Part shown: piece by piece, positions 5,057 through 20,559 of the stretch
Layout of the letters: each line of letters starts with the position of its first letter
Position numbering within the stretch: position 1 is the first letter of the stretch
Assembly: GCA_944325215.1 (NCBI GenBank)
Contig: CALUZC010000020.1
Coordinates: forward strand, 1 to 51,044
Direction of reading: 5' to 3'
Length of the DNA stretch: 51,044 nucleotides
DNA from: an uncultured Mucispirillum sp.
GTDB taxonomy: Bacteria > Chrysiogenota > Deferribacteres > Deferribacterales > Mucispirillaceae
The notes under the pieces: model-generated
Databases searched by the model: none
What the model was told of the DNA's origin: nothing
What the model saw: the letters and a program-made list of their open reading frames with translations, nothing else
Position numbers and translations under genes: made by a program

Positions 5057-7687
5057 ATGATTACCTGTCTATATATACCAGAAGATAAAAAAGCGTTAAA
5101 TTATATTGCTGAAATTACTAAGCCTAAAGATGTATATGAAAATAAAACATGCTTAATAGTGCCAACAGAGCGTAATGTGCGTCATTTAGCATCATATGGG
5201 TTTATGTATACAGATATTTTATCCCTTTCTAGTTTTTATGATTTGGCAATTGAATATGATAATATACTGCTGCCAAAAGAGCTGCGCCCATACTATCTTC
5301 TCAAAGCCGTTGAAAAACTAAATAAAGATGAAATATATGCTGTCTTTAAGAATAATAATGAAGATTTTACTAATAATTTTCTTTCCTTTGCAAAAAACAC
5401 TAATAACATATTTTCTTTTTACAGAGAACTTTTTGCAGAACATGTATCCGTGGAAGATTTATCAAAAGCTTCCCTTTATTCTGATTATGAAATGCAGATA
5501 AATATACTTACAAAACTTTGGGATATATATTTAGAGCTTATTCATAAAGATAATTATATGGATAAGTGGGAAACATATAATAATTTTAAATTAAATGAGT
5601 ATTTTATAAATTCATATAGTGAATATATATTTCTAATTAACGGTTTTCTTACAAAATATGAGCTTACCTTTATTAAAAATATAGGCACTATGCAAAATGT
5701 ATGTGTTGTTTTTAACTATGCGGGCAGCCTTTATAAACAGCATAAAGAATATGAAAAATTCTTTAATACTTCATCACTTAAAGATAAAAATATGCCTTTA
5801 TTAAATAATAATAATGTGCAGATTTATGAATGTGCTTCAAATATATCTCAAATTGAATTAATCACTAAAAAAGCATTTGAAATAAATAAAAAACATAATA
5901 TTCCATTTAATAAAATGGCAGTTGTTATGCCTGATACAAGCTGTAAACCATACTTTATTTTGCTTGATGTTTATAAGCTGTTTGATGTTTCTGCAGGTGA
6001 TGAAATGTCAAACACTAGAATATATACCCTGCTTGAAAATCTTATAAATATTTATGAAGATTTATATAGCTTTAATAACACACCTATAAATAATATTATT
6101 ACACTATTTTCAGACAGCTTTTTACTTGCTATAGATGAAATATCAAATATAGTTAGCGAGTGCAATAAATTAATAGAAAATAACAGGCAGTATATCAATA
6201 AAGATGATTTGTGTAATATAAGCTTTATCAAAAAATATTTTTATGAGCTTTTAAATGCAGATAAAACTATGACTATAAATAAAACTGCAAATATATATAA
6301 AACACTTTTAAAAAATTTAAAAGATATACTTACAATAGAAAAAGATGAAATACAAAAATGTATTATTGCCGTTGAAAAAGTGAGCACAACTTATAAAAAT
6401 ATTAAAGATGAAGTAAGTTTTTTAGAATCATCTCACCTTATACTTTCAGAAATAATGAGCCTTTCCATTGACCTGCCAAAAAGGGAAATAGCAGTAACAG
6501 GAATATTAGAAACAAGAAATATGAATTATGATATTATCTTTATGCCTTTTATGACAGAAGAACTTTTCCCACCTAAAAGCAGTAAAGATTTATTTATTAA
6601 TACAGAAATTAGAAACCAGCTTAACCTGCCTACATATATAGACAGGGAAAATTTAATGAAAAACTATTGTTTTCAAATTATTAACCATGCAAAACTTACT
6701 ATCTTTTCATATTCTGATGAGCTTTCTTCTATTCGCAGAAGCTCATTTATTGAAGAAATTATTGTAAAAAATAATTTAAAAGTAGAATATTTTTCACCAA
6801 AAGAAATATCTCTTATTAAAACAGACACTTACCACTATAATATAAAAGATAATGAAATCTCCATTGAAAAAACTGATGATGTAGTAAACCATTTAAAAAA
6901 CTTTACATATTCTGCTTCTGCATTAAATGTATATAAATCATGCTCATTAAAGTTTTATTTTAGGTATATATTAAATATTGATAAAGGGGTAGAAAGTGTA
7001 GAAAGCCTTGATAACCAAATATTTGGTATTATTATTCATAATGTTTTTAAAGAACTTCATAATAAAGGTATTACCCCACACAGTGATAAATATAAAGATG
7101 AATTTAAAAAAGAATTTACTAAATTAATAAAATCATATGATGCTTATAACCACAGTAAAGTAGAACAATTTATAGCAACTTTTATATACAACACTTTAGA
7201 GCAGATAGTTAATGCAGAAATAACACATACTAATGAAGGTTATGAAATACTAGATAGAGAAAAATGTATTACTGCAACATTTAATAGATTTAATATAAAA
7301 GGCTTTCTTGATAAGGTAGAAATCAAAGATAATAAAATATATGTTACAGACTATAAATATAAAGATATAAAAAACATAAAAATAATAAAAGATGATAATT
7401 TTGATAATGTAGATGATATTCAGCTTGTAATATATGCCATATTAATAGAAAAAGAAATGAAAAAGCTGCCTGAAAATATTTTTTACTTTAGCATAAAAGA
7501 AGATTTTAAATATTTTGAGGGCTTTGATATGGAATTATATGATAAATACAAAGTGCATATAAAAAATATGCTAAATGAGATTGTAGATAAAAATATAAAC
7601 TTTACTCAAACAGATAAACTTAAAAATTGTGATTTTTGTTCATATAACAATATATGTGGGAGGAATAATGGCTTCTTCGCTAAATAA
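5057..7687 (+). CDS. addB: AddB-like nuclease subunit (PD-(D/E)XK, Fe-S cluster)
   Basis: 876 residues. This is the partner subunit of an AddAB-type helicase-nuclease that resects double-strand breaks for recombination. The N-terminal two thirds have the AddB helicase-like layout, but no Walker A (GxxGxGKT/S) is visible, so this half is probably not an active ATPase. The C-terminal RecB-type nuclease shows D752 (GFLDKVE) and D765-Y-K767. Four cysteines in AddB arrangement (C629, C858, C861, C867) should hold a 4Fe-4S cluster clamping the nuclease domain. GGG-type ribosome site at 5047. Its last 20 nt overlap the addA start, implying translational coupling. Confidence 0.85.
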   Translation: MITCLYIPEDKKALNYIAEITKPKDVYENKTCLIVPTERNVRHLASYGFMYTDILSLSSFYDLAIEYDNILLPKELRPYYLLKAVEKLNKDEIYAVFKNNNEDFTNNFLSFAKNTNNIFSFYRELFAEHVSVEDLSKASLYSDYEMQINILTKLWDIYLELIHKDNYMDKWETYNNFKLNEYFINSYSEYIFLINGFLTKYELTFIKNIGTMQNVCVVFNYAGSLYKQHKEYEKFFNTSSLKDKNMPLLNNNNVQIYECASNISQIELITKKAFEINKKHNIPFNKMAVVMPDTSCKPYFILLDVYKLFDVSAGDEMSNTRIYTLLENLINIYEDLYSFNNTPINNIITLFSDSFLLAIDEISNIVSECNKLIENNRQYINKDDLCNISFIKKYFYELLNADKTMTINKTANIYKTLLKNLKDILTIEKDEIQKCIIAVEKVSTTYKNIKDEVSFLESSHLILSEIMSLSIDLPKREIAVTGILETRNMNYDIIFMPFMTEELFPPKSSKDLFINTEIRNQLNLPTYIDRENLMKNYCFQIINHAKLTIFSYSDELSSIRRSSFIEEIIVKNNLKVEYFSPKEISLIKTDTYHYNIKDNEISIEKTDDVVNHLKNFTYSASALNVYKSCSLKFYFRYILNIDKGVESVESLDNQIFGIIIHNVFKELHNKGITPHSDKYKDEFKKEFTKLIKSYDAYNHSKVEQFIATFIYNTLEQIVNAEITHTNEGYEILDREKCITATFNRFNIKGFLDKVEIKDNKIYVTDYKYKDIKNIKIIKDDNFDNVDDIQLVIYAILIEKEMKKLPENIFYFSIKEDFKYFEGFDMELYDKYKVHIKNMLNEIVDKNINFTQTDKLKNCDFCSYNNICGRNNGFFAK

Positions 7688-17263: not shown

Positions 17264-17277
17264 TAAAAACTAAAATT

Positions 17278-17404
17278 TAAACTTATTTCTTAAGTAAAAA
17301 TAGAATTTTCTTCATCTTTAAAGCAGGATTTTCCCCATATTTATGGCAGAATAAATAAAGAAGCAGTGCTAAAAGTAAAAAGTTTAGACGAATTTTTAAA
17401 ATAA
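17278..17404 (+). pseudogene. Degenerate 3' fragment of a second DUF952 gene
   Basis: Aligns with 16326-16452 without gaps. In the shared frame it reads KLIS-stop-VKIEFSSSLKQDFPHIYG, then RINKEAVLKVKSLDEFLK and a stop at 17402. The codon for Glu in the intact gene (GAA) is TAA here (17291-17293), and the first two thirds of the gene are missing. It begins 14 nt after the hicB stop. Probably the remnant of a tandem paralogue disrupted when hicAB arrived. Confidence 0.85.
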
Positions 17405-17555
17405 TTTATAGGAACTACAAAGTCTTTACATTATTTTATATATTATAGATATATTGCACAGTAGAATATATAAATCTTATAATTCATTAATAAATATATT
17501 TATTTTATATTTTACCACTACGACTTCATATAAATTTTAGATACTTAAATAAATC

Positions 17556-17582
17556 TTGACATTCCCCCCCCTGTGATAAAAT
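17556..17582 (+). promoter_or_regulatory. Promoter with C8 tract in the spacer (putative phase-variable)
   Basis: TTGACA (17556-17561), spacer containing eight C residues (17564-17571), then extended -10 TGA-TAAAAT (17574-17582). The spacer is 15 nt here; one or two extra C residues would bring it to the 16-17 nt optimum. Transcription would start near 17589, giving a 22-nt leader with GGAGG at 17601. Strand slippage in the C tract could switch expression. Confidence 0.7.
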
Positions 17583-17610
17583 GAGGTAGTAAATGACTAT
17601 GGAGGAATGT

Positions 17611-19245
17611 ATGAGTAAAAAAATTGTTCTTTTATTTAGTATTTGTATTAGTCTATTTATTGTTACTGCATGCAGTGATAGTAGCAGTAGTATTAGTTCA
17701 GGAAGCGGTAGTTCTGAAGGTAGTATTAGTTCAGGAAGCGGTAGTTCTGAAGATGGTAGTACAGAAGTTACACCTACAGGTAAAATAATAGGTATATATA
17801 GTGGTGGGAGCAGTTCTCAAGGAGTTAGCTTTTATGCTGTTTATGATGATGGCTCTCTTTATGCATGGGGAAAAAATAATGCTGGTCAATTAGGTGTTGG
17901 TGATACAATAGATAGAAATACTCCAACAAAGGTTACTGGTATTAGTGGAAAAATAAGAAAATTGATTCCATACACATCTACATCTACTAATTTTAGTGAT
18001 TTCCAACATGTTCTTGCACTTATGGAAGATGGCTCACTTTATGGTTGGGGTTATAATAGTTTGGGTCAACTAGGTGTTGGTGATAATAAAAATAGAAATA
18101 CACCAGCTAAAGTTAACCTGAACGGAAAAGTTGTTGATATATATAGTGCAGATAATTCTTATTTAGCACTTATGGAAGATGGTTCTCTTTATGGCTGGGG
18201 TAATAATTCTGATGGTGAACTGGGTGTTGGTGATACAATAGAAAGAAATACTCCAACAAAGGTTACTGGTATTAGTGGAAAAATAAAAAAAATAATTATG
18301 TCAACTTATGGTATATATACTAGTTCATATGCATTAATGGAAGATGGAACTCTATACGGCTGGGGCAGTAATAACGCCGCTCAATTATGTAATCTATTAG
18401 ATCCTTTTACCCCTGAAAAAATTATGAATGGTTTAGACCCAGTAATTGCTACAGATATAGCTGCAGGCTACGGTTCTTTATTTTTATTTACTCAAGATAA
18501 AGGCGAATATACTTGTGGTAAAAATAATTTTAGGCAATTAGGGACAAATTATGTTAGTGGTGGTGATATGCGACAACCTGCACCAACAACAGCAAGCATA
18601 AATAACCAAATTGCAAGGTTATTTATTTTTGATGGATTTGTATATGGAATTTTAAAAAATAACATGCTTTTTTCATGGGGTAGAAACGAAAAAACTAATG
18701 GAACTTACCCTTTTATGTTAGGTAGAGATGTAATATTTTCTCCACAAAGTCCAGATCAAGTTCCTAATATTAGTGGCAATGTAGCTGATATTATAGTTGC
18801 ATATGATAATCATAAAATTAATGCAATATATGCAGTAATGGATGATGGCTCTCTTTATGCATGGGGTTTTAATGGTAATGGTGCACTAGGTATTGGTAAT
18901 ACATTTGAAGTGCAAACACCACAAAAAGTTAATGGAATAAATGGAAAAGTAAAAAAATTATTCCCGCTTTATCAAGGTATATTAGCACTTTTAGAAGATG
19001 GTTCTCTCTATTCTTGGGGAAAAAATAATGTTGGTCAGTTAGGTGTTGGTGATAAAATGGATAAAAATACGCCAACAAAAGTTAATATTAATGGAAAGAT
19101 AGTTGATATAATAATATATAATTATTCTGTATTGGCACTATTAGATGATGGCTCTCTTTATGCATGGGGTAAAAATGATGCTGGTCAATTAGGTGTTGGT
19201 GATAAAGTAGATAGAAATACTCCAACAAAAATAGATATTAAATAA
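17611..19245 (+). CDS. RCC1-repeat surface lipoprotein
   Basis: About 544 residues. Lipoprotein signal peptide with IVTAC (Cys 21), then a Ser/Gly linker with two identical-length 11-residue repeats (27-48), then a seven-bladed-propeller-like region. Repeats read GSLYAWGKNNAGQLGVGD followed by NTPTKV, the RCC1 (ATS1) signature; some blades near residues 265-400 are diverged. RCC1-type propellers bind protein or nucleic-acid partners, and here the protein is probably displayed outside the cytoplasm. The frame extends to 17593, but ATG 17611 has GGAGG 5 nt upstream and directly begins the signal peptide. It is followed at 23 nt by another lipoprotein gene. Confidence 0.93.
   Translation: MSKKIVLLFSICISLFIVTACSDSSSSISSGSGSSEGSISSGSGSSEDGSTEVTPTGKIIGIYSGGSSSQGVSFYAVYDDGSLYAWGKNNAGQLGVGDTIDRNTPTKVTGISGKIRKLIPYTSTSTNFSDFQHVLALMEDGSLYGWGYNSLGQLGVGDNKNRNTPAKVNLNGKVVDIYSADNSYLALMEDGSLYGWGNNSDGELGVGDTIERNTPTKVTGISGKIKKIIMSTYGIYTSSYALMEDGTLYGWGSNNAAQLCNLLDPFTPEKIMNGLDPVIATDIAAGYGSLFLFTQDKGEYTCGKNNFRQLGTNYVSGGDMRQPAPTTASINNQIARLFIFDGFVYGILKNNMLFSWGRNEKTNGTYPFMLGRDVIFSPQSPDQVPNISGNVADIIVAYDNHKINAIYAVMDDGSLYAWGFNGNGALGIGNTFEVQTPQKVNGINGKVKKLFPLYQGILALLEDGSLYSWGKNNVGQLGVGDKMDKNTPTKVNINGKIVDIIIYNYSVLALLDDGSLYAWGKNDAGQLGVGDKVDRNTPTKIDIK
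17689..17754 (+). repeat. Two tandem 33-bp repeats in the RCC1 lipoprotein linker
   Basis: 17689-17721 and 17722-17754 encode SISSGSGSSEG and SISSGSGSSED. They are almost identical in DNA and in frame, so copy-number changes would lengthen or shorten the stalk between the lipid anchor and the propeller. Confidence 0.9.
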
Positions 19246-19268
19246 TATATTTATAAGAGGATATTCTT

Positions 19269-20510
19269 ATGAAAAAATTTTTATATGTTACAATAATTAT
19301 TTCTTTTATAGCTCTAATGGCAGGCTGTTCTGAAAACAAAAATACTGGGAATGGTAATAATGATAATGGCACAATTACTCCACCAACTAACCCAAATGAG
19401 ATTACACATGAAACAACAATTGGTAAAACTGGCAAATATTCCATAACATTAAAAAACCCAAACAGTGCATCAGTGGTGATTAATGTTGATTATATTAATA
19501 TCAGCAATCAAACAAATACATTTAAAATCACAGATACTACATGTGGTAAAATTGACAGCAGCCGAAACGCTATTACTGGCATGTTAACAGGTAATCAAGA
19601 ATGTGTGGTAAATTATACTTTTACTCCAACAAACCTTTCTACCGATGTTGTTCCTTTACAGGTTTTATATAATATGGACCCTGTTGAAATTTGTAATAAT
19701 TTAACTGCTGAAAATCTTCAAAAATTATCTGTTATAGAAAATTATAGAATTATTAACTATGCTTTAGATAATAACGGCAATAAATCTCCAGAAGTAGAAG
19801 AAGTTATCTTTAATGTTGATTATGCTATTTCAGGTATACCAACGACAACATATAAAACTACAAAAACTATTAATTTAGATAAAGGAACATATACTTATAC
19901 TTATAATGATACGCTAAATAAACAAATTACAATTACACCAAAAGATACAAACTGCACAGTTTCTGGTAATACTTTAGAATCTATTACTGGCAATACATGT
20001 GAATTAGAGTTTGATTATACTGCTCTTACGTTAAACAAAATATTCGTTATTCTTGAGTCCACTACAAAAAACTATACTTTAGAACTAAAAAATACATCTA
20101 AAATTTCATATGTTATAGTTAATAAATCTTCTTCTTGGAATAATTTATTTCATACAGAATACCTTAAAGATTATAATAATATATTTGATTCTCCTAAATA
20201 TAACGTAATGGAAATAGATAAACCAATGGATTATAAACTTGAAGGAAATGATGCTTCTAAATTTCAAGTTATCCCTGCACCATTTGATGGCTGCACAGTT
20301 ACAGCAACGGATATAAGCCTGCCACAAGGTAAATCATCATGCTTTTTTTCTATAGACGTAGCAGATGAATTTAAAAATATTAATGCAACGTATAATGATG
20401 CTACATTAACTTCATCAACTCTTACAACACCAATAAATTTACAAATAGATGTTCTTATAGACTATTTAAAGTTTTTTCAAGAAGAAGAATGCTCTCAAAT
20501 TCAACCATAA
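19269..20510 (+). CDS. Surface lipoprotein, beta-sandwich type
   Basis: 413 residues. Signal peptide ends in LMAGC (Cys 20), then an Asn/Gly/Pro-rich linker. The rest is Thr/Asn-rich and beta-like with paired cysteines; the segments KYSITLKNPNSASVVINVDY and DASKFQVIPAPFDGC with KSSCFFSIDV resemble repeating choice-of-anchor/ASPM-SPD-2-Hydin-like Ig modules. No exact family is claimed. It lies 23 nt after the RCC1 gene with an AAGAGG ribosome site and no terminator between, so it would share that gene's C-tract promoter. A terminator follows at 20530. Confidence 0.82.
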   Translation: MKKFLYVTIIISFIALMAGCSENKNTGNGNNDNGTITPPTNPNEITHETTIGKTGKYSITLKNPNSASVVINVDYINISNQTNTFKITDTTCGKIDSSRNAITGMLTGNQECVVNYTFTPTNLSTDVVPLQVLYNMDPVEICNNLTAENLQKLSVIENYRIINYALDNNGNKSPEVEEVIFNVDYAISGIPTTTYKTTKTINLDKGTYTYTYNDTLNKQITITPKDTNCTVSGNTLESITGNTCELEFDYTALTLNKIFVILESTTKNYTLELKNTSKISYVIVNKSSSWNNLFHTEYLKDYNNIFDSPKYNVMEIDKPMDYKLEGNDASKFQVIPAPFDGCTVTATDISLPQGKSSCFFSIDVADEFKNINATYNDATLTSSTLTTPINLQIDVLIDYLKFFQEEECSQIQP

Positions 20511-20529
20511 TGTAATTGTATAATTAAAT

Positions 20530-20554
20530 AAAATGCCTCAAACTGGGGCATTTT
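20530..20554. terminator. Bidirectional terminator between convergent genes
   Basis: Stem 20530-20539 with 20545-20554 (8 Watson-Crick pairs, then one G-T and one C-G), loop of 5 nt, with an A run on the left and T run on the right. It serves the plus-strand lipoprotein operon and lies 6 nt beyond the stop of the minus-strand dcw operon. Confidence 0.8.
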
Positions 20555-20559
20555 AAAGT

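Follow-up and report, generated by a model that had tools for sequence, protein, structure and literature searches.

Results

The promoter and its two genes

The window, which here means the whole 51,044-nt stretch of DNA that was analysed (30% GC), contains a promoter at positions 17556–17582 that was read directly as TTGACA-TT-C8-TGTGA-TAAAAT, with a spacer of 15 nt. The C8 tract is the sole run of C or G of at least six nucleotides in the window, the next longest being five. Two lipoprotein genes follow it. The features are listed below.

17543–17555, forward strand: A/T-rich upstream stretch, UP-element-like, with C as its last base; in the sibling promoters, too, positions -4 to -10 are A-rich and position -1 is C
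17556–17561, forward strand: -35 hexamer TTGACA, from the sequence and the sibling promoters
17562–17563, forward strand: TT between the -35 hexamer and the tract
17564–17571, forward strand: C8 tract in the promoter spacer, the proposed slippage site, from the sequence and genome tract counts
17572–17576, forward strand: TGTGA with the extended -10 TG at 17574–17575; aligns with ATGA or GTGA of the siblings
17577–17582, forward strand: -10 hexamer TAAAAT; the corresponding hexamer of the siblings is TATAAT or TAAAAT
17588–17591, forward strand: probable transcription start, placed by spacing only, 6–9 nt after the -10 hexamer
17601–17605, forward strand: ribosome-binding site GGAGG
17611–19245, forward strand: RCC1-repeat (beta-propeller) lipoprotein, 544 aa; Pfam RCC1 9.6e-76, lipobox VTAC
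19269–20510, forward strand: second lipoprotein (413 aa), encoded 23 nt after the RCC1 gene; lipobox, relative in G007 with 39% identity

Pfam RCC1 matched the first gene product in six stretches and the RCC1-like domain matched at 2.6e-102, so that its tandem repeats are predicted to make up an RCC1-like domain, as in the RCC1-repeat family. The ATG at 17611, behind the GGAGG, is a likelier start for this gene than the mechanical ORF start at 17593. A Pfam search assigned no family to the second lipoprotein. The original prediction had placed a C8 tract between TTGACA and an extended -10 with a 15-nt spacer, which was exact on direct reading, and had named an RCC1 lipoprotein and a second lipoprotein 23 nt further on, which was borne out by the Pfam match, the lipoboxes in both products and the length of the gap. 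Its doubt about TAAAAT as a -10 hexamer was settled by the siblings, which have TATAAT or TAAAAT exactly there.

A family of C-tract promoters

The window's own genome (G000) is a 2.55-Mb draft of 67 contigs, and the genome-wide counts are based on pattern searches and fetched stretches. It contains 33 runs of C or G of at least eight nucleotides, compared to about 5.7 expected from the dinucleotide frequencies of the window. Twelve of these 33 runs lie 1–2 nt behind a -35-like hexamer (11 TTGACA, 1 TTGATA), and for exact TTGACA followed after 1–2 nt by C8 to C10 the 11 cases found compare to about 0.04 expected. The window promoter is one of about a dozen alike in this genome and not a one-off. 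The pattern TTGACA-N0-8-C6 had matches in nine of ten Mucispirillum genomes, and a backward control pattern matched in G000 only, with 5 matches versus 37 overlapping matches of the real pattern. When a -10 hexamer was added to the pattern and 51 genomes of the phylum were searched, it was found in the same nine Mucispirillum genomes and in one genome from another genus of the same family, and was absent from all 40 genomes outside these two genera.

Two further arrangements were seen in G000. At L082 (G000:C1:45400-50800), two near-identical TTGACAT-C10 regions, with no -10 hexamer at the usual place, lie 2.3 kb apart upstream of paralogous genes of an unknown family. At G000:C4:65850-65885 (L087 1551-1586), a C9 and a G9 tract 18 nt apart form an inverted repeat beside an ORF that looks, by eye, phage antirepressor-like.

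The shared anatomy was read from 69 C-tract promoters with a recognisable -10 hexamer. Tract lengths were C6 in 1, C7 in 3, C8 in 6, C9 in 49, C10 in 9 and C11 in 1, and the spacer was 15 nt in 43 of the 69. The homopolymer lies between the -35 and the -10, as in the promoter-spacer class of opc and porA, with the -10 placed by means of the siblings that have TATAAT. The commonest form was CTTGACATT-C9-ATGATATAATG. A C at position -1 of TTGACA was found in 87% of the siblings, positions -4 to -10 were A-rich, and TGN preceded the -10 hexamer in 49 of 69. The part of the spacer outside the tract was 6 nt long in 50 of 69 promoters, split as 2+4, 3+3, 4+2 or 1+5. A sum of 6 was thus observed in 72%, versus a mean of 43.5% after shuffling of left and right flanks, and none of 10000 shuffles was as high, a figure that serves as a guide and not as a strict p-value because related promoters are not independent. 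The left and right flanks compensate each other to hold this length, which argues that the total spacing matters. Several C-tract promoters, including those at L113, L241, L251, L277 and L280, also have 5′ leader motifs in common (GTCGACAAAAAGAAGCTTC, GTGCACAAAAAAGAAGCTTC and TCAGCTGATAAAAATATTATAAAAAGG), located just 3′ of the -10 hexamer and before lipoprotein genes.

Target genes were defined by a plausible ribosome-binding site and a start at most 120 nt from the promoter, and 63 promoters qualified. A lipobox was found in 45 of the 63 target genes compared to 6 of 38 other genes in the window (Fisher p 4.5e-8); the targets are therefore strongly enriched in predicted lipoproteins. Some of the remaining targets resemble outer-membrane or secreted proteins, one of them through a weak OMP beta-barrel match below the Pfam cut-off. 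RCC1 lipoproteins recur behind C-tract promoters in G000 (contig C3), G002, G003, G007 and G009.

Tract length and gene content in related genomes

Tract length varied between orthologous promoters. G003 has C9 (L254) where G004 has C7 (L266), with the 40 nt upstream identical and the 90 nt downstream 97% identical. Likewise, C9 in G002 (L277) corresponds to C8 in G003 and G004, C10 in G000 (L084) to C9 in G001 (L247), and C10 in G002 (L275) to C11 in G006 (L118). Tract length thus varies with conserved flanks between species, at sibling promoters; as the promoters compared come from different species, the differences represent divergence and not switching within a population.

At the window's own locus, the promoter recurs in G007, where it contains C9 and TATAAT and is flanked by the same HicB-like (93%) and glycosyltransferase (93%) genes. 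Directly behind it lies only the relative of the second lipoprotein, and there is no RCC1 gene. G001 has the same neighbours (95% and 93%) without the promoter and without the lipoprotein genes. The promoter and the lipoprotein genes (17264–20559 in the window, L284 in G007, L285 in G001) are a cassette-like presence/absence locus with three states, and the gene adjoining the promoter differs between species. No slippage was seen between the window promoter and that of G007, its nearest relative: C8 followed by TGTGA in G000 and C9 followed by ATGA in G007 give a 15-nt spacer in both, a base substitution and not a length change. The total spacing was thus kept despite base changes.

The probable active spacer length

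Perfect TTGACA/TATAAT pairs without C tracts, taken from seven genomes of the genus with near-duplicates collapsed, served as a yardstick for the spacer. There were 20, 22 and 17 such pairs at 15, 16 and 17 nt, 5 at 14 nt and 7 at 18 nt, with a background of about 7 per spacing. This co-occurrence suggests that in this genus spacers of 14 nt or less are weak, 15–17 nt active and 18 nt or more weak, and would place 15 nt at the lower limit of that range. The window promoter is thus probably in an active state at present. A tract one C shorter should make it weaker, and a tract one or two C longer should leave its activity unchanged or increase it. The clustering at 15–17 nt rather than at 14 or 18 nt gives no support to the implied view that 15 nt is weak and that gain of C turns the promoter on: the change expected to switch it off is chiefly a loss of C. 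For the same reason we rejected the modal C9 as an OFF state, an idea based on 15 nt versus the textbook 17 nt. The core of the original prediction, a probable phase-variable lipoprotein promoter, is strongly supported by about 70 siblings, their lipoprotein targets and the tract differences between orthologues, but its implied direction is not supported, since 15–17 nt is normal here.

Other tracts and mismatch repair

Most of the other 21 tracts of at least eight C or G in G000 lie within ORFs or at their borders, where the coding strand has the poly-G, and a few are intergenic. The ORFs encode two GT2 glycosyltransferases, a DUF6056 protein, an EptA/EptB-type sulfatase, methyltransferases and a lipoprotein; a second sulfatase gene is broken at its own poly-G tract, and several G000 tracts lie at frame breaks. 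Coding-strand tracts of G9–G11 were located in L102 (G000:C27:14700-17800, 726–2746), L106 (G000:C54, 277–1872), L094 (G000:C11, 3828 and 7681) and L088 (G000:C5, 1519), loci that encode sulfatases (one of EptA/EptB type), GT2 glycosyltransferases and a DUF6056 protein. The poly-G genes, with L102 and L094:3828 at frame breaks, are likely frame-switched surface-modification genes. A G11 tract upstream of RCC1 genes on contig C39 (L104) was considered as a frame switch for a paralogue and rejected, as no length that was tried opened into the gene.

The modal length of the non-promoter tracts was also 9 (15 of 21), so that this length looks mutational and not like a promoter requirement. This suggests that 9 reflects a mutational balance and that the 6-nt flank is set by selection. 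MutS was found in nine of ten genomes of the genus, the missing one being a fragmented genome. Loss of mismatch repair was therefore rejected as a driver, and slippage rates may be modest.

A similar layout in gut Clostridia

Among the public-genome matches listed, several uncultured gut Clostridia of another phylum, with genomes of 0.8–1.1 Mb, had 3–10 promoters each of the form TTGACA-N2-4-C8/9-TAWAAT and no control matches (L121, L122, L165, L187 and L189; genomes G051–G055). Their target genes are mixed, a few lipoprotein-like and many not. The layout may represent convergence, or may hint at a static role of the tract.

Discussion

A slipped-strand switch in a promoter spacer, of the kind found at Neisseria opc and porA, is in our judgement the probable best explanation. 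A sigma70-type promoter would hold a slippage-prone C tract between its -35 and -10 hexamers, strand slippage during replication would add or remove C residues and shift the spacer by whole bases, and the two-gene lipoprotein operon would be transcribed more or less strongly as a result. The dozen or so such promoters in G000 would then together vary a set of surface lipoproteins stochastically at the promoter level. We regard this reading as quite probable for the promoter family, and a little less so for the C8 locus in the window. We infer that tract length changes often enough to be relevant and that such changes alter expression. Several points weigh against a switch. The tract length is strikingly uniform, with C9 in 49 of 69 promoters, and the window promoter shows no length change relative to G007. 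Its C8 is shorter than the C9 of the siblings and should slip less, MutS should damp single-base slippage, and the promoter could tolerate different spacer lengths owing to its A-rich upstream region and TG motif.

The same uniformity, together with the 15-nt spacer shared by 43 of the 69 promoters, is what speaks for the main rival, that the C tract is a fixed element needed by a regulator, a sigma factor or the DNA shape in a static lipoprotein regulon. The 15-nt spacer length that G000 and G007 share although some of its bases differ points the same way, and the C8–9 layout in small-genome gut Clostridia is its best support. However, tracts from C6 to C11 occur, lengths differ between near-identical orthologous promoters, the non-promoter tracts (mostly poly-G in genes) share the mode of 9, and the ORF tracts at frame breaks fit slippage and not a binding site, and we consider a fixed element unlikely. 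Slippage might also be real and have little consequence, if the extended -10 and the UP-like region carry the promoter and tract lengths are simply tolerated. This is consistent with TGN ahead of the -10 in 49 of 69 and with the conserved A-rich upstream positions, but in 50 of 69 the flanks compensate to keep a non-C length of 6 nt, which argues that total spacing matters, and lipoprotein targets are strongly enriched; tolerated slippage thus appears improbable. That the run is due to chance or to an assembly artefact beside an unrelated promoter is scarcely credible, even though G000 is a draft and homopolymers are error-prone, because the same architecture occurs in nine of ten genomes of the genus, including the single-contig G006 with its ten promoters, where 0.04 was expected.

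The slipped-strand switch can be extended, tentatively and with slightly less than even confidence, to a promoter-based contingency regulon of the whole genus Mucispirillum in the phylum Deferribacterota. Its standard cassette would consist of an A-rich stretch, CTTGACA, C9 and a -10 hexamer with a fixed 6 nt of non-C spacer, the mutationally favoured C9 would be a single base away from the limit of the active range so that a one-base slip switches lipoprotein genes, and gut Clostridia with reduced genomes would have reached the same layout independently.

Homopolymer switches in promoter spacers are already known, and the proposed Mucispirillum case appears unusual in scale and uniformity. 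In Neisseria, porA and fetA are single loci that encode outer-membrane proteins and have a homopolymer, poly-G in porA, between the -35 and -10 of their promoters. The tract in Mucispirillum also lies within this spacer, but is poly-C and occurs at many loci in a different phylum. In Neisseria meningitidis opc (opcA), as described in PMC3447861, which cites Sarkari 1994, the length of a promoter poly-C tract sets the expression of a surface protein, and selected clones that had gone from C11 to C12 had more Opc. Neisseria has MutS, and its loss raised opc variation (PMC3447861). As in opc, the Mucispirillum tract is poly-C in the promoter of a predicted surface-protein gene, and both organisms have MutS. 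Unlike opc, Mucispirillum has about a dozen promoters of the same layout per genome with mostly lipoprotein targets, a modal C9 instead of C11–12, an exact TTGACA and an extended -10 in about 70%.

Poly-G/C loci in Campylobacter and Helicobacter act mostly by translational frame switching, whereas the window case would be transcriptional. Like these contingency loci, G000 has intragenic poly-G in surface-structure genes, and 29 loci with poly-G/C tracts of at least 7 were counted in C. jejuni NCTC11168 (PMC4965091).

In H. pylori, sabA has a T tract that does not lie between the -35 and the -10, whereas the window has a C tract within that spacer. As proposed for the window, a promoter-region repeat acts there as a rheostat that tunes transcription of an adhesin gene (PMC4081817).

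Mucispirillum schaedleri is a member of the core mouse gut flora and is associated with inflammation. Phase variation in Mucispirillum was not described in any paper found by full-text literature searches of incomplete coverage, and the 2017 M. schaedleri genome paper has no mention of phase variation or of homopolymers. If the slipped-strand switch is correct, the genus would randomly tune many surface proteins through gain and loss of C, and promoter-level lipoprotein switches together with frame-switched glycosyltransferase and phosphoethanolamine-transferase-like genes would account for its surface variation. The promoters would also form a natural series that differs almost only in spacer length, which would make the spacing rule measurable. 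The C-tract pattern was also present in three viral contigs, for which no link to Mucispirillum was found. In a viral contig with 56% GC (L282, IMGVR_UViG_3300013414_000115, 6758–6786), TTGACA-AT-C10-TGTGA-TAAAAT precedes the gene for a small protein that looks membrane-anchored.
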